Positions 13,699 through 28,717 of a DNA stretch of 33,305 nt are shown here, one piece after another. The notes beneath the pieces were generated by a model. That model was given only the letters and a program-made list of their open reading frames with translations, ran no database searches and had not been told where the DNA came from. The position numbers and the translations under genes are program-made. Origin of the DNA: Holophagae bacterium (GTDB lineage Bacteria > Acidobacteriota > Thermoanaerobaculia > Thermoanaerobaculales > Thermoanaerobaculaceae); the NCBI GenBank assembly GCA_012516935.1, contig JAAYVZ010000155.1, positions 1-33,305 on the forward strand, in the 5' to 3' direction. The first letter of the stretch is position 1, and every line of letters starts with the position of its first letter.

Positions 13699-14754
13699 TC
13701 ACGTCTTGAGGGCGCGTTGGAAGAGCTCCCGCAGGCTCAGTAGCACCTGAGCGAACGCCCGGCTGTTGAGGAACTCGTGCACCTTCTCCTTGGGAGCGCT
13801 GCTGCCGAGAGTGCTCTGGAGATCCTCGACGATGCTGTAGAAATCGGATACCGGCTTGAGCCCCAGCGGCACGAAATGCTCCTGGTACCAGGGGCTTTCC
13901 CGCACGATGTACCAGACCTTGAGGCTCGAGGCGGTGCCGCGCGCCCACACGGCCTCGGCCACCGCCATGATCTCGGCGTAGAGCGCGCGAAGCACGATCG
14001 GGTTCTGGCGCCGGTCGAGTGCTTGCAGGACCTCGTCGAACGACGGGGTCGGAGGCGCTGTCCGCGGTCCCTCGGGCCTGGGAATCGTGCGCGGAGTCGC
14101 GGCCGGAGAGAACGGCAGCGTGACCGGGATCGGCTGGTTCACCGGAGCGGACGCGGTGGGGGCCTCGGGTTCCGGGGTATCCGGCTCAGGTGCAGGGCCA
14201 GGGGTGGGTGGGGTCGGCTGCCGAGCCTCGGGCGGTGCTGGCGGCGTGGTTTCGAGTGGCGAGGGGGTCGGCGCTGGCACTTCATGAGGATCAGCTCCAG
14301 CGCGCAGGTGCTGCGTTGTTTGAGGGGCTAAATTGAGCCGGCTCCGCAGGGTTGCTAGCAGCGACAGCTCTTCATCAGCTACCGGGTGGGCGTGCCCGAG
14401 CCTCTGAGCGACGATCTGCAGCTCCATGAGGCGGGCACGCAGGATCTGCGACTGCGGAAAGACACCGGCGAGGAGCTCGATCCCGGGTTGCTGGCCTTCG
14501 AGAATCTCGACCATGTCGAAGAAATCGACGTATTCGAACAGCTCACGCTCGCCGCTGGAGTACCAGGCAACCGTGTCCTCTCGATCCTTCTTGCCCTCCA
14601 AACGTTCACGCACCCCGTTGGGAACGCCGCGCGTGAACCATTCCTCGCCATGCGCGGTGGTGAGGTCACCGCGCAGCCGCTCGCGAAGGGCGAGGAGCAC
14701 CTCGGTCAAGCTACTGAAAGCCTCGAGGTTCGACTCGATCCAGTCGTTTTCCAC
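13699..14754 (-). CDS. HEPN/Swt1-like N-terminal domain with proline-rich linker and unknown C-terminal domain
   Basis: I chose the GTG at 14754, because AGGAGG (14766-14761) lies six bases before it; the adjacent GTG 14757 is nearly as good. The 351-residue product has three parts. Residues 1-130 resemble the Swt1-type HEPN family: HGEEWFTRGVPNGVRERLEGKK, then LFEYVDFFDMVEILEG, then QRLGHAH, which gives an R-x4-H pair (R118, H123) like the RNase motif of HEPN proteins. Residues about 145-235 are proline-rich and probably disordered. Residues 235-351 form a second helical domain (FDEVLQALDRRQNPIVLRALYAE and onward) that I do not recognise. HEPN proteins are often RNases in toxin or defence systems, but no antitoxin is adjacent. 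The assignment rests on motif resemblance only. Confidence 0.5.
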   Translation of the reverse strand: MENDWIESNLEAFSSLTEVLLALRERLRGDLTTAHGEEWFTRGVPNGVRERLEGKKDREDTVAWYSSGERELFEYVDFFDMVEILEGQQPGIELLAGVFPQSQILRARLMELQIVAQRLGHAHPVADEELSLLATLRSRLNLAPQTTQHLRAGADPHEVPAPTPSPLETTPPAPPEARQPTPPTPGPAPEPDTPEPEAPTASAPVNQPIPVTLPFSPAATPRTIPRPEGPRTAPPTPSFDEVLQALDRRQNPIVLRALYAEIMAVAEAVWARGTASSLKVWYIVRESPWYQEHFVPLGLKPVSDFYSIVEDLQSTLGSSAPKEKVHEFLNSRAFAQVLLSLRELFQRALKT

Positions 14755-14860
14755 CACCTGCCTCCTGGTGGAGACGATAGCACAGGCGATAGGCCATTCC
14801 GGCATCGGTAACCGTCAAGACGAAAGGAATTCCGGCACGGCTCTTGCTCTCCCACGAGTG

Positions 14861-15957: not shown

Positions 15958-18066
15958 TCAGTGCTGTTTGGCCGGATCGGAGGCCGCGAGCTCCTCGATC
16001 AGTGCCTGGACCTCGAGGTTGAGCCCCTGGCGCCGGAACAGCACGGCATGGAGCTGTCTTTGTAACCCTTCGCCCTCGGCCCTCACTGCGTCGAGCCGAT
16101 CCGACTCGACGGGTGCCGTCTGAGCCGGCGGGTTGATCCCCATCTCGATGAGGCGGAACGCCATCATCAGCACCCCACGCCACAGTGTGTCAGGAACGGC
16201 ATGCGGGCGGTCTGGAACACGATCGATCTGCCGATAGAAAAGGTTGCTCTTGGTGAGCAGGTTGGGATGGGCGGCAAGTGCGGCGCTGAGGGCCGACTCG
16301 ACCAGGAACGACCCGCTGCGCACCGGTACCGGGGCGGCGGCTGTGGCGCGCCGCACGGTTCCGGCTACGACCTCTGCCACCGCCGACAGATCCTGGGTGT
16401 CGTTGACCATCAGCAGGCGGAGAAAGATCACCCCGAGAGAGAACGCATCGTCGCCATCGGTGAACCGAGGATACACGCGGTAGCGCACGAGCGGCAGGTG
16501 TAGACCGCCGCTGCGGGCGATTCGGCGTGCTGCAGCGGGCGCCAGAACGACTGGTTCAGAGGTGACCCGGATCTCACCCCCGGGGCCGCTGCCGAGCCGA
16601 GGGTCGAGGCGCACCACGAGCGAGGCGACGCCCAGCTCCTCCGCCCCGTCCGGGATCGCGAGCAGGAGCCAGTCGTGGGTGGATGGGCGCAGGTGCAGCC
16701 CGTGAGGGTCACGCAGGGTGGCCTCGATCCGGTAGCGGCCCGAGCCGTCGCTCTCGGCTGACACTCGCTCAATCAGCAGCTCCGCACGCCGGCGCGCCTG
16801 GGCGCTGAACTCCCGGACGCGCGGCGCGGCAAACGGAACCTTCATCTCCCGGGGCGGAAGCAGGACCGAGGCCCCGCTTCCCAGTGCCACCTCTCGGGTA
16901 CCCGAGGTGCCGAGGAGGCGGGTTCTGAAGCTCCAGAGCGCTGGCAGGAGCTCGCCCGGACGGCCCGGATCGACCACCAGGTGATCGGGATGGAGGTCGA
17001 GGTGGGGCAGGCGCAGCCGCAGGTGGTACTCTCGGACGCAACCGAGGATCTGCAGGAACAGGCTGAGCTTGAGGGTCAGGATCTCGACCGCGTCCAGACC
17101 GGACCCTGCATCGCCGAAGATGAACCCTCCCGCGTCAGGCAAGCCCGGAATCGCGGTGTCGGGCCGGCCGCCCAACCGATCGGCAAACGCCTCGAGCGAG
17201 GCCGGTACCAAGCGTGTCACGATGTAGGGGCTTTCGGTCGACGAGAAAAGGTTCCACAGAGGCTGCGAGGCGGCGCCTTTGGCCCGCCTGCGGCCCGTGG
17301 CTTCGCCACCTGGCGCCCCGCCGAGGCAGGTGGCGCTCATGGCGCAGCGCAGGCACGGCGGGGCCGGCCCCTCGTGCCCGGTTCCGGAGGCAAAACGTGT
17401 CGCTGCCTCCGCCCAGGCGCGCTGCAAGTCTTCGAAGCTCCCGGCCACCTCACCCGAGGTGGCCTCGACCGGCGGCGAAACGGCCCAGAGACGAGTCTCG
17501 CGGCCTTCCTGCCGGCACTGCGGGCAGGACAGGTAGCGCTGCTCTGTACCCGCGGAAAGAGGTAGGCCGGCGGCTGCGGGAGCGGTGCCGGCGCGGTAGC
17601 TCCTGAGCGGCCCCAGACAGGTCGGACAGAATACGGCAAAAAGACGCCGCAGGAGGGTGCAGAACAGCAGGGGCGGAACGGTCGGAAGTGGAGAACAGTC
17701 CGGCGCCGGGAGGAGCAGCTCGGGGAAGCAGGAGGTGTCGCCCTGCAGCAGGGCGAGATCGGCGAGCGTGCGGACCCACCACTCGTCCCGGGAGGCGTCG
17801 AGGCCTTCCAGCTCATCCTCGGGGAAGAACCCTTCCGCAGCCTCCTCCTGTCGCAGCTTGACCACGACTGGGGTGATCACGCTCCCGGAGGCGGACACGA
17901 GTGCCCCGCGCAGGCAGCGGGTTCGCGGTGAGTCGCCGATCAGCCTCACGAAGGCGATCAATGGTGAGTCGGTCACCTCCTCCTCGAGCTCGAGGTATAT
18001 GCCGAGGTCGTTGGGGTCGAGTGGTAGGAACGGGACGAAGCGGGACGGTGGCTTGTCTGAGCTCAT
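15958..18066 (-). CDS. Kinase-like (probable pseudokinase) protein with inserted zinc ribbon, T6SS-linked
   Basis: The 702-residue product from ATG 18066 has no family I can name, but its order of motifs is that of a protein kinase. VVVKL (K70) resembles the ATP-binding lysine strand. YIVTRLVPASLEAFADRL (281-298) resembles the hinge. REYHLRLRLPHLDLHPDHLVV (345-365) contains an HxDLxPx(N/H) catalytic loop with D357 kept. The metal-binding DFG is replaced by WSF (378-380), and DDAFSLGVIFLRLL resembles subdomain IX. Between the lobes lies a zinc-ribbon-like insert with C147-x2-C150 and C181-x2-C184, and a further cysteine cluster near 238-247. No signal peptide is seen. It begins 7 bases after the stop of the TssB-TssC fusion gene, so both form one unit divergent from the T6SS core. 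A regulatory or scaffold role is inferred. Confidence 0.6.
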   Translation of the reverse strand: MSSDKPPSRFVPFLPLDPNDLGIYLELEEEVTDSPLIAFVRLIGDSPRTRCLRGALVSASGSVITPVVVKLRQEEAAEGFFPEDELEGLDASRDEWWVRTLADLALLQGDTSCFPELLLPAPDCSPLPTVPPLLFCTLLRRLFAVFCPTCLGPLRSYRAGTAPAAAGLPLSAGTEQRYLSCPQCRQEGRETRLWAVSPPVEATSGEVAGSFEDLQRAWAEAATRFASGTGHEGPAPPCLRCAMSATCLGGAPGGEATGRRRAKGAASQPLWNLFSSTESPYIVTRLVPASLEAFADRLGGRPDTAIPGLPDAGGFIFGDAGSGLDAVEILTLKLSLFLQILGCVREYHLRLRLPHLDLHPDHLVVDPGRPGELLPALWSFRTRLLGTSGTREVALGSGASVLLPPREMKVPFAAPRVREFSAQARRRAELLIERVSAESDGSGRYRIEATLRDPHGLHLRPSTHDWLLLAIPDGAEELGVASLVVRLDPRLGSGPGGEIRVTSEPVVLAPAAARRIARSGGLHLPLVRYRVYPRFTDGDDAFSLGVIFLRLLMVNDTQDLSAVAEVVAGTVRRATAAAPVPVRSGSFLVESALSAALAAHPNLLTKSNLFYRQIDRVPDRPHAVPDTLWRGVLMMAFRLIEMGINPPAQTAPVESDRLDAVRAEGEGLQRQLHAVLFRRQGLNLEVQALIEELAASDPAKQH

Positions 18067-18073
18067 GGCGACT

Positions 18074-19858
18074 CTACCTGATTGCTTGGGTTCCGAGAAC
18101 GAGGTCCACGCTGCCGCCGTAGATCGTGAAGGCTGGCCGTAGCCGCACCGAGATGTCCCACAGATGTGGCGCATTGAGAGCCGGCGCTACCTCGACCTCG
18201 ACCTCTGCGGCCAGGGGGTGAGGCTCGGCCGTGGCCAAAAAGCCGAGGAGCTGGCCGTGAACGTGGTCTTTGACGCCCTCCTCGTCAGCATGGGCAGGGC
18301 AGGCGCGCGCCGCCGCCTGGAGAGCCTTGGCGGCGACCGACGCGAAGAGCTGGTAGGGCAGGGTCGCGGACCGGAAGCTTGCCGCTGTCGCCTCGGCGGT
18401 GTCGTAACGGGCCACAGCGTGCACTGAAGGCGTTGACAGAAAGTAGGCTCGGTCGGTACCCGGGACACCCAGCAGCGGCGCAAAGCCGCTGTCGACGAGC
18501 TCGAGCGCTTTCTGGTCACTGAGCAGAGCCTCGACCGCCGCCTCGGTCGGCTCGCCTTTGCCAACCCGAGCCGTGCGAGTGGCCAAGCCGGAGAGGAGCG
18601 CCGGACCCTCAGCGCCAGCCATCGGGAATCGCGGTCCCTCGGCCAGGTACCCTTGGGCCACGGCCGCAGCCAACGCCCAGACGCCTGACCCAAAAAGAGG
18701 GCGGTTGGCAGCACCGGCGGCGGCGGCATCCCAGGCGAACCCTGCCACAGCAGCGCCAGGCTCACCCCACGCTGACCGCAGCAGCACCCGGTTGAAAGCG
18801 AGGGCCAGCCAGAGCGAGCTCTCGTCGGCACGCAGGCGGTTCCACTTGGCGTACTCAGGCCCGCGCGATTTCCGCCCCAGGTCGGGCATGGTGGCCACGA
18901 GGGAGAGCTGCTTGACACCGAAGAACTCAGGGCCAACCTCAGCAATGAACGGGACACCGAGGCTCGAGGCGAGACGCGCTGCGTGGTGCAGGCTCTCCGT
19001 GTCGCGTGGCGAGCGGTCGAAGGCATAACCGAGGACGACGAGGCCAAGCGGTGGGTCGACCTCGCCAGCGTGCTCGGCCTCGAAATGCGTGTCGTAGAAG
19101 GAGTCGAGGTAGTCGTCCTTGGAGGCCGGTTGAGCGTGAACCTGGACCGGTCCGCCAGGTTGCACCCGCGCCAGCAGCAGCTCGAGGCCGCGCCAGGCGG
19201 CCTCGAGCTCCCGCAAAGCCGGCGCATCGGCGAACGTCGCAAGCTGTAAGGTGAGCCGGTAGTCGACGGCGGCGAGTGCCGCCGCCACCGCCGGCCCGCT
19301 GCCAGCAGCCGCGGCGGCTCCCAGCGCCGTTTCCAGCGCTAGCGAGGACGTCGCCTGCACCGTCGGGACCTGCACCATGCCGAGCAGCGAGTCGACAGCG
19401 GAGGCGCCGGAGGGTGAGGCCGTCGTGGCGGCTGCCGGGCGCTCGCGTACCAGCGAGGCGAGCTCGCTGTCTCCGGCAGCCACGAGCAGACGCTCGGCGA
19501 GCTGGCCCGCTCCCGTCCGGCCGTCAGCACCATCGGCGAGTGCCTCTCGGATGCGAAGCAGGGTCGAGGTCAGGGCGTGGCCGCGGGCCAAACGCTCGGG
19601 GGCGAAGTCGGCGAGCCGGCGAAACGCGAGCGTGCAAGCCAGCTCGGGGGCGCCGACGCCGAGGCGGTTGGGCACCCGGAGTCGCACGGTGGGCTCGAGC
19701 GCAGCCATCAGCGATTCGAGGCCGTCAAGCTCCACCCAGCGGGGGGCCTCGGCCCGCCCGCCCGCGAAGTCGGAAAGCACCAGCAGGCGCAGAACGGGGG
19801 CAGGGTGCGAGCCGAAGGTCGAGGTGACTGCCGAGGTCGTGGCGGTGTCGGAGCTCAT
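18074..19858 (-). CDS. TssB-TssC fusion paralogue (T6SS sheath-like protein)
   Basis: The 594-residue protein joins both sheath subunits in one chain. Residues about 20-135 are TssB-like: LRLLVLSDFAGG, VRLRVPNRLG, then LAFRRLADFAPERLARGHAL. From about 175 it is TssC-like: LRELEAAWRGLELLLARV, a SKDDYLDSFYD segment, GVPFIAEVGPEFFGVKQL, EYAKWNRLRADESSLWLAL, and LVDSGFAPLLGVPGTDRAYFLSTPSV. The same landmarks occur in the separate tssB and tssC genes across the promoter gap. Alanine-rich linker sequence (about 140-195) joins the halves. AGGAGGGG precedes ATG 19858 at a good distance. Canonical T6SS sheaths are made of separate TssB and TssC, so this is an unusual second sheath-like protein. It may cap, nucleate or vary the sheath, which is speculation. 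Confidence 0.85.
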   Translation of the reverse strand: MSSDTATTSAVTSTFGSHPAPVLRLLVLSDFAGGRAEAPRWVELDGLESLMAALEPTVRLRVPNRLGVGAPELACTLAFRRLADFAPERLARGHALTSTLLRIREALADGADGRTGAGQLAERLLVAAGDSELASLVRERPAAATTASPSGASAVDSLLGMVQVPTVQATSSLALETALGAAAAAGSGPAVAAALAAVDYRLTLQLATFADAPALRELEAAWRGLELLLARVQPGGPVQVHAQPASKDDYLDSFYDTHFEAEHAGEVDPPLGLVVLGYAFDRSPRDTESLHHAARLASSLGVPFIAEVGPEFFGVKQLSLVATMPDLGRKSRGPEYAKWNRLRADESSLWLALAFNRVLLRSAWGEPGAAVAGFAWDAAAAGAANRPLFGSGVWALAAAVAQGYLAEGPRFPMAGAEGPALLSGLATRTARVGKGEPTEAAVEALLSDQKALELVDSGFAPLLGVPGTDRAYFLSTPSVHAVARYDTAEATAASFRSATLPYQLFASVAAKALQAAARACPAHADEEGVKDHVHGQLLGFLATAEPHPLAAEVEVEVAPALNAPHLWDISVRLRPAFTIYGGSVDLVLGTQAIR

Positions 19859-20144: not shown

Positions 20145-20681
20145 ATGACGCGTGACCGTAGCTTCCAGAAGGAGATCCCGCCGTCGCGGGTCAACATCCG
20201 GTACGTCAAGTACACCGGCGGTGCTCAGGAGCAGGTCGAGCTGCCCCTCAAGCTCCTGCTGCTCGGGGACTACACCGGCAGGGCCGACGCCACACCGCTC
20301 GAGGAGCGCCAGAAAATCAGTGTCAATAAGGACAACTTCGAGGCCGTGATGAGGGAGCAGAACCTGCGGCTATCGATGGTCGTCCCGAACCGGCTCTCCG
20401 GGGTGGAAGGCGACGAGATGTCCGTGAACTTGGCCCTCGAGTCGTTGGACTCTTTCAACCCAGACGATATCGTGAGGCAGGTTCCGGAGCTCACGAAAAT
20501 GCTGGAGATCCGCGACTTGCTCGTGGACCTCAAGGCTCGCGTCATCACCAACAAGCGGTTCCGTCAGGCGTTGGAGCGGATCGTCAAGGACCCGTCGCAG
20601 ATCGAGACGATCATGCGGGAGCTGGACCGCGTGGCTCCTCTTCCGGAGGGCGCCGCTAAGCTGCCTGAGGGGCAGGCGTGA
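20145..20681 (+). CDS. tssB: T6SS contractile sheath small subunit TssB
   Basis: TssB (VipA) pairs with TssC to build the contractile sheath around the Hcp tube. The 178-residue length is normal. Landmarks are FQKEIPPSRVNIRYVKYTGG, LPLKLLLLGDYTGR, LRLSMVVPNRLSG and LESLDSFNPDDIVRQVPEL, all family-typical. AAAGGAG lies upstream of ATG 20145. It heads the plus-strand operon tssB-tssC-hcp-tssE-tssF-tssG-tssH, about 160 bases downstream of a good promoter. An internal paralogue of this domain forms the front half of the divergent fusion gene. Confidence 0.95.
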   Translation: MTRDRSFQKEIPPSRVNIRYVKYTGGAQEQVELPLKLLLLGDYTGRADATPLEERQKISVNKDNFEAVMREQNLRLSMVVPNRLSGVEGDEMSVNLALESLDSFNPDDIVRQVPELTKMLEIRDLLVDLKARVITNKRFRQALERIVKDPSQIETIMRELDRVAPLPEGAAKLPEGQA

Positions 20682-20708: not shown

Positions 20709-22199
20709 ATGGCAAAAGAGCAAGCCAGCACCAAACCGCAAGCCGTGACGGTCGAAGAACGGGGGGTGCTCGACGGTCTGTTCGAGATGGTGGACATGGC
20801 GGCACCGGCGGCAGGTGAGGCAACCACGCCGGCTGGGAGGCTTTCCCAGGCGCTCAACATGCTCATCCGTGAGGTGGCGCTCAGCGGCCGCACGGTGGAG
20901 CACGTGGACAAAGCCCTGGTGGATAGCCTCATTGCTAGCCTCGACCAGAGAATCTCCGCCCAGGTCAACGAGATCCTGCACAACCCCGATTTCCAGCGCC
21001 TGGAGTCGGCCTGGCGGGGCCTGAAGTTCCTCATCGACCGGACCGACTTCCGGCGCAACGTGCGAATCGAGGTCCTCAACGTCTCGAAAGACGACCTGCG
21101 ATCCGACTTCGAGGACGTCCCCGAGCCGATCCAATCGGGACTGTTCAAGCACATCTACGTGCAGGAATATGACCAACCCGGCGGCGAGCCGATCGCGGCT
21201 ATCATCGGCAACTACGAGTTTTCGAACCATCCTCAGGATATTGCGTTGCTCGGCAACATGTCCAAGATCGCCGCGGCCTGCCACGCCCCTTTCATCGGCG
21301 CTGTCGGGTCCGAGTTCTTCGGTCTGCGTTCGGTCGACGAGCTGCCTCGGCTTCCCGATGTGGCGCCGATCTTCGAGCAGGCGGAGTACGCCAAGTGGCG
21401 GGCGTTCCGCGACAGCGAGGACTCCCGCTACGTGGGTCTGACGTTCCCCCGGTTCTTGCTGCGCCTGCCGTACGGAACGGAGACGATACCCACCCGCACT
21501 TTCCACTACGAGGAAGACGTCACGGGCAGCCACGGTAACTACCTATGGGGCAACGCGAGCTTCGCCTTTGCCTCGACCTTGGCGCGCTCGTTCGCCGACC
21601 ACGGTTGGTGCGTGAACATCCGTGGGCCACAGTCGGGTGGATTGGTGGAGGATCTGCCGCTGCATTTCTACGAGGCCGCCGGCGAGACCACGGTGAAGAT
21701 CCCGACCGAGGTGCTGATCTCGGACCGTCGCGAGTTCGAGCTTTCGGAGCTCGGGTTCATTCCGTTCTCGTTTTACAAGAACAAGGATTTCGCCTGCTTT
21801 TTTTCGGCCAACTCGGTGCAGAAACCGAAGAAATACCTCAACGCGGATGCCACGGCGAACAGCCGGTTGTCCGCCCGGCTGCCCTATCTCTTCCTTGTCA
21901 GCCGGCTCGCGCACTATCTGAAGGTCATCCAGCGCGAGAACATCGGTGCGGCCAAGGAGAGGGACGAGCTGCAAAGGGAGCTCGAGACCTGGATCAAGAC
22001 CCTGGTGACGGACATGAAGGACCCAGGTCCTGAGCTCAAGGCTCGTTGTCCACTCTCGGCGGCCAGGATCGCGGTCACGGATATCGCTGACAACCCGGGG
22101 TTTTACAACGTTGAGATGATGGTGCGACCACACTTCCAGATCGAGGGCGTGGACGTCAGCCTGTCGCTGGTGTCCCGTCTTCCGAAGGCCAAGAAGTGA
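20709..22199 (+). CDS. tssC: T6SS contractile sheath large subunit TssC
   Basis: TssC (VipB) is the larger sheath subunit, and it carries the part recognised by ClpV after contraction in concert with TssB. The 496-residue length is typical. Landmarks are ILHNPDFQRLESAWRGLKFLIDRTDF, LNVSKDDLRSDFED, QPGGEPIAAIIGNYEF, CHAPFIGAVGSEFFGL, EYAKWRAFRDSEDSRYVGLTFPRFLLR, and the C-terminal VSRLAHYLKVIQRENIG. AGGGGGTGAGAG precedes ATG 20709, 27 bases after tssB. It is complete and looks functional. Confidence 0.97.
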   Translation: MAKEQASTKPQAVTVEERGVLDGLFEMVDMAAPAAGEATTPAGRLSQALNMLIREVALSGRTVEHVDKALVDSLIASLDQRISAQVNEILHNPDFQRLESAWRGLKFLIDRTDFRRNVRIEVLNVSKDDLRSDFEDVPEPIQSGLFKHIYVQEYDQPGGEPIAAIIGNYEFSNHPQDIALLGNMSKIAAACHAPFIGAVGSEFFGLRSVDELPRLPDVAPIFEQAEYAKWRAFRDSEDSRYVGLTFPRFLLRLPYGTETIPTRTFHYEEDVTGSHGNYLWGNASFAFASTLARSFADHGWCVNIRGPQSGGLVEDLPLHFYEAAGETTVKIPTEVLISDRREFELSELGFIPFSFYKNKDFACFFSANSVQKPKKYLNADATANSRLSARLPYLFLVSRLAHYLKVIQRENIGAAKERDELQRELETWIKTLVTDMKDPGPELKARCPLSAARIAVTDIADNPGFYNVEMMVRPHFQIEGVDVSLSLVSRLPKAKK

Positions 22200-22285: not shown

Positions 22286-22756
22286 ATGCCACTGCCAGCA
22301 TACTTGGAGATCGGTGAAATCCCCGGATCCTGCAAGGTGCAGGGACGGGAAAACCACATGGAGATCTTGGGTTTCCGGCACGAGGTTTACATGCCGGTGG
22401 ACCGCAAGGACGGCAGCGCCTCGGGCACCAGGGTCCACAAGGATCTGATCGTCATCAAGAACTTCGACAAGGGCTCTCCGAAGCTTTACCAGTACCTCTG
22501 TAACGGCAAGATCATCGCCTCCGCCACCCTCAAGTGGTACGAGATCGACCCTTCCGGCCAGGAAAAGATGTACTTCACCCACAAGCTGGAGAACGCTCGG
22601 GTGACGGCGGTGCGGCCGTACATGCCCGACGTGGACAACCCTCATAACGAGCAGTACAAGCACATGGAAGAGGTCGCCTTCCGTTACGAAAAGATCACCT
22701 GGACTTTCTGCGACGGGAACGTCGAGTTCACCGACTCCTGGGTGGAAGGCCGCTAG
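22286..22756 (+). CDS. hcp: T6SS inner tube protein Hcp
   Basis: Hcp (TssD) hexamers stack into the tube that is propelled into target cells. The 156-residue protein begins MPLPAYLEIGEIPGSCKVQG and continues with HMEILGFRHEVYMPVD, KDLIVIKNFDKGSPKLYQYL and a C-terminal FRYEKITWTFCDGNVEFTDSW. These match the Hcp beta-barrel pattern, including the conserved YEKITWT-type strand near the end. AAAGGGGAGG precedes ATG 22286. The 86-base gap after tssC is the longest so far in the operon, which may allow separate expression, since Hcp is needed in large amounts. Confidence 0.93.
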   Translation: MPLPAYLEIGEIPGSCKVQGRENHMEILGFRHEVYMPVDRKDGSASGTRVHKDLIVIKNFDKGSPKLYQYLCNGKIIASATLKWYEIDPSGQEKMYFTHKLENARVTAVRPYMPDVDNPHNEQYKHMEEVAFRYEKITWTFCDGNVEFTDSWVEGR

Positions 22757-22885
22757 CCGTCGAGCAGTTGCCGGCATCTTTGCGGCGCGTCTGTGCTGGC
22801 GTCGCGCGCGGCGCGGCGCCAGGTTCGTCTTGTGACCGTGCTTGAGAGAACCGCACCGCGGTCCGGATGGGTGAGAGGAGGGGCC

Positions 22886-23317
22886 ATGCCCCAGCGTCGG
22901 GAGGAGCGGGGCTTTTTCGAGAGGATGCTCGGGCCCCTGCCGGGGGCTCCGCGAAGCCAGACGATCCGCTGGGTCGGCGACCCGGTGCGTGATCACCTCG
23001 CGCTTCTTCTCAACACCAGGCGCGGGGCGGTGCCGCACCTGGCGGACTACGGCCTGCCGGATGTCTCCGAGTTCTACACCGACTACCCGGGGTCGCTCGC
23101 GGAGCTACGGAAGCTGGTCGAGCAGCTCATCCGCACGTATGAGACGCGTTTGTCGAACGTACGGGTGCGGCTCGTCGAGTCCGATAGCTCCGAGTTCAGG
23201 GCCTCGTTTCTGATTTCCGGCGACCTCGAGTCCGGAGACGAGCCGGTGCGGGTCACGTACCGCACGACGATCAATAACTCGGGACGGGCGGCGCTCGATG
23301 CGGTTGGGCCAGAGTGA
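22886..23317 (+). CDS. tssE: T6SS baseplate subunit TssE (gp25-like)
   Basis: TssE resembles phage T4 gp25 and joins baseplate to sheath. From ATG 22886, with AGGAGG just before it, the product is 143 residues, as expected. The open frame extends to 22793 but without family similarity. Landmarks are GFFERMLGPLPG at the N-terminus, VRDHLALLLNTRRGAVPHLADYGLPDVSEF and a C-terminal FLISGDLESGDEPVRVTYRTTIN strand pair, all gp25-like. The gap to hcp is 129 bases with no recognised feature. Confidence 0.92.
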   Translation: MPQRREERGFFERMLGPLPGAPRSQTIRWVGDPVRDHLALLLNTRRGAVPHLADYGLPDVSEFYTDYPGSLAELRKLVEQLIRTYETRLSNVRVRLVESDSSEFRASFLISGDLESGDEPVRVTYRTTINNSGRAALDAVGPE

Positions 23318-23346: not shown

Positions 23347-25092
23347 ATGGCCGGTCCTGACCGTTATTACGAGGAGGAGCTGAACTACCTGCTGGAGGCG
23401 GGGCGCGAGTACGCGCGGCTGCACCCCGAGCGCGCGCGCTTCCTCAACCTGCCTGACCCCCGGGCTCGCGACCCGCACGTGGAACGGCTCGTCGAGTCGT
23501 TCGCGTTTCTTACCGGTCGGGTCCGCCAGCGTCTCGACGACGACTTCCCTGAGCTCACGCACGGGCTGCTCGACCTCATATTCCCGCACTACCTGAAGCC
23601 GATCCCCTCGCTCGCCCTGCTCGAGTTCCGCCCCATTCCGGGGATGCTGCGGGAGCGCCAGGTAATCCCGAAAGGTTTCCTGGTCGACTCCAAGCCTACC
23701 TCGGCCGGCGTCGCCTGCCGTTTCTCCACGACCTACCCGGTGGAGATCTACCCACTCGTGCTCGAAGCCGCTGGCATCCACACCGATGCCGCCGGCCAGC
23801 GCTCGATCCGCCTCACGCTGGGCGTGCTCGAGGGTGCGGACGCGTCGAAGGTCGACGTGGGCCGGCTCCGTGTCTGCATCTGCGGTGAGCCGGCGGAAGC
23901 GTTCGCCCTCTACCGCGTCATCCGGCAGACGCTGGAAAAGGTGGTGCTCCACTTCGGTCGCGACCGGCGGCGCGAGCTGCCGCCCTCGGTTCTCCGCCCG
24001 GTCGGGTTCGGCGAGGAGGATACGGTCCTGCAGTATCCGGCTGTGAGCTTCCCCGGGTACCGGTTGCTGTCGGAGTACTTCGCTTTTCCCGAGAAGTTCC
24101 TCTTTTTCGACCTCGTGAACCTCGGTGCGATCGAGCTCGACAAGGGCGCCAGAAGCTTCGACCTCGAGCTGCGGTTTTCGGCGCGCCTGCCCGACAAGCT
24201 GCGTCCCACCCGGGAGACGTTCCGGCTCTACGCCACGCCTATCGTCAACCTCTTTCCACGCGACGGCGAGCCGATTCTCGTCACCCAGCTCAAGACTCGT
24301 TACCGTGTGCTCGGGGATTACACCCACCCCGATGCGTACGAGGTGGTTTCGGTGGATACCGTCGAGGGCGTGCGCAGCAGTGATGGCGCACGGCAGGTTC
24401 ACCATCCTTTCTACTCGTTCGCCGCGCCGAGCCACGAGACACGGGACGAGGTCACGTTTTTTCACACGCATTCCGGACGCAGCCCATCAGGCGCTTGGGT
24501 GACGTATCTGTCGCTCGTCCACCCGACTCGCGGCCAGCTTCCGAGCGAGGAAACGCTATCGCTTCAGTTGACGTGCACCAACGGCCCGCTCTGTCGCGAG
24601 GTCGGGATCGAGGATATCAGGGTCGCGGCGGTCAAACGGCTGGATTTCGTGACGTTCCGCAACTTCACCCGGCCGACGGCACCGCTGTACCCACGGCTTG
24701 GTGAGGGCAGCGAGTGGCGCTTCGTCTCGCACCTCGCAATCAACTTCCAGTCGCTGGTTGCGCCCGGCGCGCTGTCGAACCTGCTGGCCCTGTACGACCC
24801 CGGAGGCCAGCAGGCGAACCAGCGCCGTATCGAGGCTATCCGTGCGGTGCGGGCGTTTCCCAGTGAGCGGGTGCTGGGAGGCGTGGCGGTGCGGGGGACG
24901 CGCTTGGAGGTGGAGCTGCACGAGGGTGGATTCGACGACGAGGGGGACTTGCTGCTTTTCGTCCAGGTGCTTTCGGAGTTCGTCTCGCTCTACGCCGAGA
25001 CCAACACGTTCGCCGAGCTGCAGGTGCTCCGGCGGCCATCAGGGGAGGTGCTGCGGTGCCCGCCGGTCCAGGGCAAGCAAGCGCTGCTCTGA
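23347..25092 (+). CDS. tssF: T6SS baseplate subunit TssF
   Basis: TssF forms the baseplate wedge with TssG, TssE and TssK. The 581-residue protein opens with the family signature RYYEEELNYLLEAGREYARLHPERARFL, followed by DPHVERLVESFAFLTGRVRQRLDDDFPELTHGLLDLIFPHYLKPIPS. The central region includes FHTHSGR and the C-terminus LLLFVQVLSEFVSLYAETNTFAELQV, also typical. ATG 23347 is preceded by GGGAGG. The stop overlaps the tssG start (TGATG), so the wedge subunits are translated together. Confidence 0.95.
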   Translation: MAGPDRYYEEELNYLLEAGREYARLHPERARFLNLPDPRARDPHVERLVESFAFLTGRVRQRLDDDFPELTHGLLDLIFPHYLKPIPSLALLEFRPIPGMLRERQVIPKGFLVDSKPTSAGVACRFSTTYPVEIYPLVLEAAGIHTDAAGQRSIRLTLGVLEGADASKVDVGRLRVCICGEPAEAFALYRVIRQTLEKVVLHFGRDRRRELPPSVLRPVGFGEEDTVLQYPAVSFPGYRLLSEYFAFPEKFLFFDLVNLGAIELDKGARSFDLELRFSARLPDKLRPTRETFRLYATPIVNLFPRDGEPILVTQLKTRYRVLGDYTHPDAYEVVSVDTVEGVRSSDGARQVHHPFYSFAAPSHETRDEVTFFHTHSGRSPSGAWVTYLSLVHPTRGQLPSEETLSLQLTCTNGPLCREVGIEDIRVAAVKRLDFVTFRNFTRPTAPLYPRLGEGSEWRFVSHLAINFQSLVAPGALSNLLALYDPGGQQANQRRIEAIRAVRAFPSERVLGGVAVRGTRLEVELHEGGFDDEGDLLLFVQVLSEFVSLYAETNTFAELQVLRRPSGEVLRCPPVQGKQALL

Positions 25093-26117
25093 TGGCTCGG
25101 ATGAGCGTCACCGGGCACCAGTTCGACTTCTTTCAACTGGTGTACCTCCTGGAACGGTGGCTCGATCGGCGCGCACCGGTCGGCGGGCCAGGCCCGATCG
25201 ATGACGAGGGAGTTCGCTTTCGCCCCGATGCGTCCCTGGCGTTCTCACCTGCGGACGTGATGCGGGTCGAGAAGGCCGATGCCGACGAGCGAAGGCCGGG
25301 TTCAAGCTGGGACTACCGCGTGGTCGTGAGCTTCATGGGGCTGTATGGCGTGGCTGCGCCGTCACCGGTCTACTTCTCCGAGCTGATCGGCTTCGAGGAC
25401 GTGGATCCTGACCCGCTCGTGGACTTCCTCGATCTCTTCAACCACCGCCTGATTTCGTTGTACTACCGGGCCTGGCTGCGATACCGGTACCCCTACCGGT
25501 TCGAAGTGGGAGGCGCCGACCAGCTCTCCGGCTTTCTGCTGGCGTTCCTCGGGCTCTGTGATCCAGTGTCGCGCCAGGGCTTGGGTGTCGATGCGTTTCG
25601 ACTCCTCAAGTACATCGGCTTGCTCTCGCTGCGCAGCAAACCACCCGAGGCGCTCCAGAGGGTGCTGACCGACTACCTGGGCGGTTTTCCGGTGGCGGTC
25701 CGGGAGCTGGTGCTGCGGTGGGTGGATATCGAACCGGCCAACCGCAACCGGCTGGGGCTGGGGGCGAGCACGCTCGGGCGCGACCTGCTCGTCGGCACAC
25801 GTTTGCCCGACCGCATGGGCCGCGTGCGCGTCGTCGTTGGACCGCTCGGGCTCGACCAGTTCCTTAAGCTGCTTCCCGACCGCACCCTTTTCGGCGAGGT
25901 GTGCAGTCTCATCGAGCTGCAAACATTCAAACGCTTCGCGTACGACGTGGAGCTGCGGCTGCACGGGTCGGCAGTCCCGACCCTGCAGGTCGGCGGGCCG
26001 GCCGCGGTGCGGCTGGGCTGGACCTCGTTCCTGTGCAGTGCGCCGGGACGGGATGAGGATGGCGTCGTCTGGCTGCAGCCAGCGCGGCGATCGCAGAGCA
26101 GGGAGGTGCGCGCATGA
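25092..26117 (+). CDS. tssG: T6SS baseplate subunit TssG
   Basis: TssG is the second baseplate wedge protein. Starting at ATG 25092, which overlaps the tssF stop, it has 341 residues. Landmarks are HQFDFFQLVYLLERWL at the N-terminus, the VRFRPDASLAFSPADV strand, VSFMGLYGVAAPSPVYFSEL, DPLVDFLDLFNHRLISLYYRAWLRYRYPY and the GPLGLDQFLKLLPD motif near the C-terminus, all conserved in the family. The frame is open slightly upstream to 25056, which is only overlap with tssF. The end overlaps tssH by four bases (ATGA). Confidence 0.95.
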   Translation: MARMSVTGHQFDFFQLVYLLERWLDRRAPVGGPGPIDDEGVRFRPDASLAFSPADVMRVEKADADERRPGSSWDYRVVVSFMGLYGVAAPSPVYFSELIGFEDVDPDPLVDFLDLFNHRLISLYYRAWLRYRYPYRFEVGGADQLSGFLLAFLGLCDPVSRQGLGVDAFRLLKYIGLLSLRSKPPEALQRVLTDYLGGFPVAVRELVLRWVDIEPANRNRLGLGASTLGRDLLVGTRLPDRMGRVRVVVGPLGLDQFLKLLPDRTLFGEVCSLIELQTFKRFAYDVELRLHGSAVPTLQVGGPAAVRLGWTSFLCSAPGRDEDGVVWLQPARRSQSREVRA

Positions 26118-28717
26118 TCACCCGGGACGTTCGAGCATTGCTCGGCAAGGCAAACCCGTACATGGCACGGCAGCTCGAGGCAGCAGCCGGGTTCTGTATC
26201 GCCCGGACGCACTACGAGGTAACGCTCGAGCACCTGTTCTGCAAGCTGCTGGAGGACGGGCGCGGCGATCTGGTCAAAATCCTCCGCCACTTCGGAGTCG
26301 ACGCCGGGGCGCTCGAGAGCCGCTTGCTGGCGGCGGTCGAGCAGATGCGCTTCGGCAACACCGGGCGCCCGAGCTTCTCGCCCCTGCTGCTGGACGTCAT
26401 CGAGCAGGCGTATCTCATCGGTTCGCTCGAGTACGGCTACGAGCAGATCCGGTCCGGGACCGTGCTCGCCGCCGTGCTCGCATCGGCCGGGATGTCGCCG
26501 TTTCGGTCGTACCTCGACCTGCTCGAGCCGATCCGGCTGGAGGAGCTCAAGGGCTCGTTCGCGGAGATCGTCGCCGGTTCGGAGGAGGACCGTCCGGCGA
26601 CGGGGCGTTACGGCGCGCCGCGTCCCGAACGGGTGGCCCAGCCCGGGGCGAAAGCAGACAGCGCGCTCGCGCAGTTCTGCATCGATGTCACACAGCGGGT
26701 GCGTGAGGGGGCAATTGACCCGGTCCTCGGGCGCGATGAGGAGATCCGCCAAATGGTGGACATCCTCGTGCGGCGGCGCAAGAACAACCCGATCCTGGTG
26801 GGCGAGGCGGGGGTCGGCAAGACCGCGCTCGTCGAAGGCTTGGCGCTGCGCATCGTCGCCGACGATGTGCCGGGACCGCTCAAGGACACCCGGATCCTCA
26901 ATCTCGACCTTGGGCTGCTGCAGGCCGGGGCGGGCGTCAAGGGCGAGTTCGAGAACCGCCTCAAGTCGGTCATCGCCGAGATCAACGAGGCCAAAGCGGC
27001 AGGCGAGAAGATCATCACCTTCATCGACGAGGCGCACACCCTCATCGGTGCCGGCGGCCCGGCGGGGGGTGGCGACGCCGCCAACCTCCTCAAGCCAGCG
27101 CTGGCGCGCGGTGAGCTCCGCACCATAGCCGCTACCACGTGGTCCGAGTACAAGAAGTATTTCGAGAAAGATGCGGCCCTCGCACGCCGCTTCCAGCTCG
27201 TGAAGGTGGACGAGCCGGACGAAGTCCGGGCGATCACCATGCTCCGCGGCGTGCGGTCCAAGTTCGAACAGGCGCACAACGTGCGCATCCTCGATAGCGC
27301 TGTCGTAGCTGCGGTGCAGCTCTCGCAACGCTACATCTCCGGTCGGCAGCTTCCCGACAAGGGCGTGGACGTCATGGACACCGCGTCGTCACGCGTCAAG
27401 GTAGGCCTGGACGCGAAGCCAGCGGCGATGGACCGCCTCGAGCGGCGGATCATGTACGCCGAGATGGCGCTCGCCGCGCGCCGACGCGACGTCGAGGGTG
27501 GCACGTACAAGGACGACGGCGAGATCGAGCGTCTGGAGAGCAGCATCGCTGCGGCGCACGCGGAGCTCGCCGCCATCGCGCCGCTCTGGGAGCGCGAGAA
27601 GGCGGCGGTGAGCAAGGTCATGGCGGCGCGCTCCGAGAGCGGTAGCCCCGAGGAGCTGCAGGCGGCGCTCGCCGAGCTGGCGGAGGTGCAGGGCCCAAGC
27701 CCGCTCATTCCGCTGGAGGTGACGCCGGATGTGGTGGCCTCGGTGGTGGCCGATTGGACCGGCATCCCGGTCGGCAAAATGGTACGCGACCAGGCCGGGA
27801 TCGTGCTCGAGCTCGAGCAGCAGCTCGGCAAGCGCATCATCGGTCAGGATCACGCGCTGGCGGTCCTGGGCGAGCGCATCCGAGCCGCCCGCGCCGGGCT
27901 CGGTAACCCCAACGCCCCGCAGGGCGTCTTCCTCATGGTCGGCCCTTCGGGGGTCGGCAAAACCGAGACCGGCCTCGCGCTCGCCGACCTGCTGTACGGC
28001 GGGGAGCGCTTCCTGACCACCGTCAACATGTCGGAGTACCAGGAGGCGCACACCGTGTCGCGGCTCATCGGCTCCCCACCCGGGTACGTGGGTTATGGCG
28101 AGGGCGGCGTGCTCACCGAGGCGGTGCGCCAGCGGCCGTACTCCGTCGTGCTGCTCGACGAGGTCGAGAAATCGCACGCTGACGTCATGAACCTCTTCTA
28201 CCAGGTGTTCGACAAGGGCATGCTCTCCGACGGTGAGGGGCGGGAGATCGATTTCAAGAACACGGTCCTGATCCTGACCTCCAACCTCGCCTCCGACACC
28301 ATCATGGAGATGACGGCCGGCGGTGCCACCGCCGAGGACCTCATCGAGGGGATCCGACCGGTGCTGCGTGAGCGCTTCAAGCCGGCGCTGCTCGCCCGTA
28401 TGACGATCGTGCCGTTCTTTCCGATCAGCCCCGAGAACATGCGGCGGATCGTCGACCTCAAGCTCGCTAAGGTGGCCGAACGGCTGGCCGCGAACGCCCG
28501 GGTGACGCTCGAGACCACCCCGGCGCTCGCCGACTGGGTCGCCGAGCGCTGCACGGTGGAGGAGACCGGCGCCCGCAACGTCGACCAGGTCATCGCGGGA
28601 CAGATCCTGCCGCGCATCTCGACCGAGATCCTCTCCCGCATGGCGAAGGACGAGCCGGTGGGCACGGTCAAGGCGGACGTCGGCGAGGACGGCGCGCTGA
28701 CGATCACCTTCGCCTGA
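26114..28717 (+). CDS. tssH: T6SS AAA+ ATPase ClpV (TssH)
   Basis: ClpV disassembles the contracted sheath so that its subunits can be reused. The 867-residue chain has a Clp N-domain (about 1-150), then two AAA+ modules. Walker A motifs are GEAGVGKT (230-237) and GPSGVGKT (610-617), with Walker B IITFIDEAH and VVLLDEVEKSH. The middle region (about 400-530) is helical and rich in charged residues, as in ClpB and ClpV. The segment PRTERVAQPG-like between N-domain and first module is short. It starts in an ATGA overlap with tssG. The gene context identifies it as ClpV rather than ClpB. Confidence 0.95.
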   Translation: MITRDVRALLGKANPYMARQLEAAAGFCIARTHYEVTLEHLFCKLLEDGRGDLVKILRHFGVDAGALESRLLAAVEQMRFGNTGRPSFSPLLLDVIEQAYLIGSLEYGYEQIRSGTVLAAVLASAGMSPFRSYLDLLEPIRLEELKGSFAEIVAGSEEDRPATGRYGAPRPERVAQPGAKADSALAQFCIDVTQRVREGAIDPVLGRDEEIRQMVDILVRRRKNNPILVGEAGVGKTALVEGLALRIVADDVPGPLKDTRILNLDLGLLQAGAGVKGEFENRLKSVIAEINEAKAAGEKIITFIDEAHTLIGAGGPAGGGDAANLLKPALARGELRTIAATTWSEYKKYFEKDAALARRFQLVKVDEPDEVRAITMLRGVRSKFEQAHNVRILDSAVVAAVQLSQRYISGRQLPDKGVDVMDTASSRVKVGLDAKPAAMDRLERRIMYAEMALAARRRDVEGGTYKDDGEIERLESSIAAAHAELAAIAPLWEREKAAVSKVMAARSESGSPEELQAALAELAEVQGPSPLIPLEVTPDVVASVVADWTGIPVGKMVRDQAGIVLELEQQLGKRIIGQDHALAVLGERIRAARAGLGNPNAPQGVFLMVGPSGVGKTETGLALADLLYGGERFLTTVNMSEYQEAHTVSRLIGSPPGYVGYGEGGVLTEAVRQRPYSVVLLDEVEKSHADVMNLFYQVFDKGMLSDGEGREIDFKNTVLILTSNLASDTIMEMTAGGATAEDLIEGIRPVLRERFKPALLARMTIVPFFPISPENMRRIVDLKLAKVAERLAANARVTLETTPALADWVAERCTVEETGARNVDQVIAGQILPRISTEILSRMAKDEPVGTVKADVGEDGALTITFA

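Follow-up and report, generated by a model that had tools for sequence, protein, structure and literature searches.

Genes and setting

A kinase-like protein encoded next to the sheath gene of a T6SS raises the question of what it does there, given that its residues WSF stand where a kinase would have DFG. We addressed this question for one such protein, here called KIN. It is encoded in a 33,305-nucleotide stretch of a Holophagae genome (the window) that also holds a large part of a T6SS:

15958..18066, minus strand: KIN, pseudokinase-like protein of 702 aa (open reading frame, model, homologue alignment, codon test)
18074..19858, minus strand: TssB-TssC sheath fusion (Pfam VipA and VipB), 7 bases upstream of KIN
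20145..20681, plus strand: TssB (Pfam)
20709..22199, plus strand: TssC (Pfam)
22286..22756, plus strand: Hcp (Pfam)
22793..23317, plus strand: TssE, start uncertain (Pfam)
23347..25092, plus strand: TssF (named by order and size; relative in the T6SS cluster of genome G041)
25101..26117, plus strand: TssG (likewise named by order and size; relative in the same G041 cluster)
26114..28717, plus strand: ClpV/TssH (likewise named by order and size; relative in the same G041 cluster)

The names TssF, TssG and ClpV, as well as TssJ and TagF used below, are our assumptions, based on gene order, size and mutual similarity, with no Pfam call. A 352-aa protein with no Pfam match (13699-14757, minus strand) is encoded near KIN both in the window genome (G000) and in the same-genus genome G002, where it is 67% identical.

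KIN is a protein-coding gene under purifying selection. The open reading frame listed in the first-pass annotation is present on the minus strand, while the plus strand of the interval is interrupted by stops. It starts 7 bases past the stop codon of the sheath fusion on the same strand, and a same-genus homologue (locus L018) likewise begins 8 bases past its own fusion; an alternative upstream ATG at 18174 would give a longer frame overlapping the fusion. Comparison of KIN with the same-genus homologue over 702 aligned codons gave dN 0.30 and dS 1.08 (dN/dS ~0.28), with 189/153/364 substitutions at codon positions 1/2/3. Identity is 65% in the sense frame versus 34–55% in the antisense frames, which contain stops. 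More than 50 columns are invariant in an alignment of 14 KIN proteins from the class, and none of 17 KIN matches has an internal stop. Long conserved antisense frames (~690–790 aa) lie opposite KIN at four loci (L020, L021, L024 and L025). A codon-based caller picked them as genes; we rejected them and chose the sense frame because of homology.

Kinase-like fold

No Pfam or NCBIfam family fits KIN, and none of the 17 members matches Pfam Pkinase at E 1. The KIN sequence alone found no PDB chain at E 1, and a PDB profile search with the family gave weak matches (best E 0.14), with no EssB chain among them. An AlphaFold2 model computed from the alignment of the 14 class members (A2) reached a pTM of 0.80 and a mean pLDDT of 75.2. 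Foldseek returned no match to it at E 0.001 or better, with many kinases among the weak rows. When the Foldseek top 1000 were aligned with VIA-align, 442 chains had Z of at least 8, and the best 50 of these 442 were all protein kinases, headed by IRAK1, IRAK4 and PKR at Z ~16; for reference, models without a clear match typically reach a best Z of 7 to 8. The KIN model superposes on IRAK1 with Z 16.1 (277 aligned residues, 3.5 Å), on PknB with Z 15.8 and on IRAK3 with Z 15.6. The last of these is the only named pseudokinase among the best 50 of the 442 chains, and EssB is not among the matches listed, an absence that carries no weight. Kinase superpositions at Z ~16 cover 250–277 residues, and the aligned KIN residues span 11 to 673; therefore the lobes are split by inserts.

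An hhalign profile comparison of A2 with five STK domains (real kinases from T6SS neighbourhoods) aligned 75 columns that reach from helix E to APE, at a probability of 93.7%; a wider profile (A5) gave 83.0% over only 37 columns. The pairs include helix E of KIN, HLD under HRD, the DFG region and APE. As modelled, KIN has a two-lobed kinase-like fold, in agreement with the first-pass annotation.

Cysteine-rich and beta-barrel inserts

Three segments stand out from the kinase framework:

17515..17628, minus strand: ribbon-like insert C147PTC150 ... C181PQC184, putative metal site, from sequence
17326..17355, minus strand: third cysteine cluster C238LRC241AMSATC247, absent from the first-pass list
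16459..16800, minus strand: inserted small beta-barrel, ~residues 423-536, weak fold matches, best Z 6.1

The two CxxC pairs (C147/C150 and C181/C184) had been placed between the lobes. Both pairs exist, and by our assignment from the secondary structure of the AlphaFold2 model they fall within the N-lobe, after strand 4 and ahead of strand 5 and the hinge, which roughly fits that placement. At least two CxxC motifs occur in 14 of 17 homologues and none in the other three; a Pfam zf_Rg match is weak and under the cut-off. The third cluster is common to the window protein, the same-genus homologue L030 and the distant homologues L112 and L113. The beta-barrel follows the APE motif and precedes helix F, and residues 383-538 modelled alone also give a small beta-barrel (pLDDT 82.6). 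It resembles common barrels alone (Upf1, ferredoxin-reductase-like, F1-ATPase), and therefore no function was read from it. No transmembrane segment was found in the 17 proteins (highest 19-residue Kyte-Doolittle mean 1.82), which are predicted to be soluble.

KIN follows one TssK clade

In our class sample (148 genomes of Thermoanaerobaculia, Acidobacteriota), KIN is present in 14 genomes and TssK in 20. TssK scores form two groups, with at least 259 bits in 13 genomes and hits of at most 178 bits only in seven. All 13 genomes of the strong type carry KIN, and none of the seven with only the other type does. TssC was found and TssK was not in the 14th KIN genome, G137 (87% complete). G041 has both TssK types (contigs C11 and C45) and a single copy of KIN, in the strong-type C11 cluster. 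The 13 strong-type TssK proteins form one clade (100/98) in a tree of 32 rows; the KIN label needs three changes on this tree, and none of 500 shuffles was as low. Within the class, KIN strictly accompanies a single TssK clade, as counted over genomes that are mutually related and hence non-independent.

TssK was found in 64 of the 396 genomes of the phylum sample. Profile A5 detects KIN in seven of these 64, all seven being among 13 genomes with TssK of intermediate score (~230–310 bits). The idea that every intermediate-score cluster has KIN was accordingly rejected. An hmmsearch of regions from the six KIN-negative intermediate genomes, several of them short, gave no KIN (best non-KIN E 0.16). 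KIN is missing in these six of 13 and is therefore not required for that broader group. The matches in G314 and G438 from the phylum scan were retained, whereas L111, matched in part in G335 at E 4e-4, was dropped because its translation read like an SMC-like coiled-coil protein. A single-sequence scan of genome contigs with KIN found no relative. An alignment scan of genome contigs by a short-conserved-pattern method found 13 loci, titled Acidobacteriota, Acidobacteria, Thermoanaerobaculia, Thermoanaerobaculaceae or Holophagales only, a result of short patterns that does not exclude occurrence elsewhere. Two queries gave no KIN match in plasmids.

FHA and membrane-complex genes next to KIN

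The 14 class genomes with KIN fall into two sets: G000, G002 and G041 (f1/f6), and the other 11 (f17). The gene after KIN encodes an FHA protein in 10 of the 11 f17 loci, and the 11th locus stops at the contig edge. Where the contig continues, the FHA gene is followed by tssK-tssL-tssM-tagF. Six f17 contigs extend across a TssJ-like gene (its protein has no Pfam match), tssK, tssL, tssM and partly tagF, and a TagF-like gene closes the cluster. The GR, S..H and NGT positions, which we take to be those of the FHA motif, are kept in 9 of 9 aligned FHA domains. KIN had previously been set apart from T6SS kinases that act through Fha, a separation that this gene order does not support.

In G000 and G002, KIN and the FHA gene sit on separate contigs, and in G041 they share a contig but are ~30 kb apart. 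The T6SS of G000 is divided: sheath, tube, baseplate and ClpV genes lie in the window (C92), and FHA, TssJ-like, TssK, TssL, TssM and TagF genes lie together on contig C125 (L054).

Outside the class, the homologues at L112, L113 and L135 are upstream of tssK-tssL-tssM. The KIN homologue at L135 is preceded by a genuine kinase gene (Pkinase E 2e-55) that ends 23 bases ahead of it, and real STK genes are found near T6SS genes in several loci. In the distant loci a further protein is encoded between KIN and TssK. We considered whether it could be part of an FHA protein that has been split; this was rejected, with no Pfam support and no convincing similarity between the two of the three intervening proteins that were compared. 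In the KIN-less genome G347, a real Ser/Thr kinase gene (L147:458-1912) also precedes TssK, from which a single gene of 504 aa separates it.

The T6SS link proposed in the first-pass annotation is strong: it is seen both in the 13 of 13 strong-TssK genomes with KIN and in the FHA neighbours, and homologues are T6SS-linked, not scattered. Because its relatives lie within the clusters of one T6SS lineage, KIN probably has a regulatory or scaffolding role in the T6SS; its family is unnamed in the databases searched.

The sheath fusion as a possible partner

KIN and the sheath fusion had been described as one unit, with the fusion as the defining partner. The unit stands in the window, where 7 bases separate the genes, but KIN is directly downstream of a fusion in only 3 of 14 class genomes, and 10 of the 11 others adjoin the FHA gene instead. 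These three are the genomes with the full-length fusion (FUS), in all of which KIN follows 1 to 8 bases behind it. A shorter VipA plus VipB protein occurs in 8 of the 11 f17 genomes (one seen in part only); across 273 residues of their TssC portion the two forms are 27% identical. Fusions of both forms occur beside separate TssB and TssC (window 18074-19858, minus strand; L114:2734-4104; L117:2665-4038; L123:5255-6604; L125; L126).

KIN might then be an assembly factor or chaperone specific to the sheath fusion, its FHA linkage being mere operon neighbourhood. The tight spacing in all three FUS genomes fits such a role, as does the presence of either fusion form in 11 of 14 KIN genomes versus none of the seven KIN-less T6SS genomes of the class. 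However, the f17 fusion is ~24–31 kb from KIN or on another contig, and no fusion was found in three genomes that have KIN, G139 (99% complete), G134 (96%) and G147 (75%). We consider this explanation unlikely.

Altered active site

The kinase motifs of KIN map as follows:

17857..17868, minus strand: strand-3 motif VVVK, residues 67-70
16981..17004, minus strand: HLDLHPDH, residues 355-362, in the place of the catalytic loop and paired with HRDxKPxN
16927..16935, minus strand: WSF, residues 378-380, replacing the DFG region
16819..16827, minus strand: APR, residues 414-416, APE equivalent
16432..16449, minus strand: helix-F motif DAFSLG (subdomain IX-like), residues 540-545

VVVK, HLDLHPDH and DAFSLG, all noted earlier, recur in homologues. 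Among the 17 homologues the strand-3 Lys is kept in 12 and replaced by Arg in four and Gln in one, Glu is present at the APE equivalent in 11, and the D and G of the helix-F motif are invariant. At the HRD positions, His is found in 16 of 17, Leu replaces Arg in all 17, and Asp is found in 16. The catalytic-loop Asn is present in none, with His instead in 14. Profile alignment with STKs places Ser379 of KIN at the DFG Asp, directly after Trp378, which is invariant (17/17). The earlier reading of WSF as a non-DFG sequence is thereby upheld and its register refined. The DFG Asp is missing in 16 of 17 homologues, L135 being the sole carrier, and it has no conserved substitute; the catalytic loop is more eroded in distant homologues.

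The protein had been called catalytically altered, which these counts bear out, and its motif 'degraded', for which 'conserved non-canonical' is the better term, as the change is family-wide. Judging by the alignment, the altered catalytic site is a conserved family trait, not that of one decayed copy, and the residues required for ordinary phosphotransfer are lost throughout the KIN family.

Lys, the HLD Asp and a helix-C Glu (seen in each of the 11) are retained in the f17 proteins, which would leave room for residual or altered catalysis. KIN could use these three residues as an enzyme of altered chemistry, by SelO- or SidJ-like AMPylation or glutamylation, or by metal-independent phosphotransfer, and pseudokinases with new chemistry are precedents (PMC12599244). 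Yet the helix-C Glu is absent in exactly the three fusion-linked proteins (the window protein, L030 and L035), Lys is replaced in 5 of 17, and neither the lack of a conserved substitute for the DFG Asp nor the further loop loss in distant homologues favours retained chemistry. Such an enzyme seems to us improbable, somewhat more so than the fusion-specific factor. A third alternative, in which KIN has no function and is what remains of a PpkA-type kinase, retained through linkage, would fit the lost motifs and the real STK genes near T6SS genes in several loci, but is very improbable given the selection test (dN/dS ~0.28), the invariant columns and the stop-free frames.

Proposed role

Our best explanation (probability roughly 0.55) is that KIN is a soluble pseudokinase of one T6SS lineage, an inferred scaffold or phospho-switch working with Fha. 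KIN would have no phosphorylating activity of its own and would serve in the threonine-phosphorylation pathway, where KIN or its partners would be the substrate of a genuine Ser/Thr kinase and the phosphothreonine would be read by the FHA protein of the same T6SS. Through its cysteine-rich and beta-barrel inserts KIN may touch the membrane complex (FHA-TssK-TssL-TssM); in the window lineage these inserts may also contact the sheath fusion encoded just upstream. A bolder version, which we hold only tentatively and think rather less likely than the pseudokinase reading itself, makes KIN a phospho-switched hub from Fha/TssK-L-M to sheath assembly, extending or replacing PpkA and working in the window lineage via the dedicated TssB-TssC fusion.

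If the scaffold or phospho-switch reading is true, a kinase fold without catalysis can stand at the centre of an Fha phosphorylation pathway. A conserved pseudokinase that marks a T6SS lineage also gives a concrete protein and a partner list to test.

Comparison with known systems

We found no T6SS pseudokinase described in the open-licence literature searched. KIN resembles the PpkA-type T6SS Ser/Thr kinases, which belong to the threonine-phosphorylation pathway with Fha partners, in its kinase fold and, for f17, in being encoded in a T6SS cluster beside Fha. Unlike them, it has no DFG Asp, HRD Arg or loop Asn, no membrane segment by hydropathy and no Pfam Pkinase match.

Pseudokinases are known in T7SSb (PMC12599244). 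Like EssB/YukC of that system, KIN is a catalytically altered kinase fold of a secretion machine; EssB is described there as a transmembrane protein of Firmicutes, whereas KIN is predicted to be soluble and has two inserts. The DLHK pseudokinases (PMC12599244) share with KIN the kept HRD Asp, the absence of a transmembrane segment and altered ATP and metal motifs, but they keep the loop Asn and miss the strand-3 Lys, the reverse of KIN; the DLHK section of that review describes no T6SS link. The MviN pseudokinase domain (ActPs3), with its phosphorylated tail, is bound by FhaA, a link shown physically (PMC12599244). KIN likewise is a pseudokinase linked with an FHA protein, here by gene neighbourhood alone, and unlike MviN it keeps HLD and mostly Lys. 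We regard MviN-FhaA and EssB as the closest analogies for the mechanism of KIN, offered as analogies and not as a claim of family membership.
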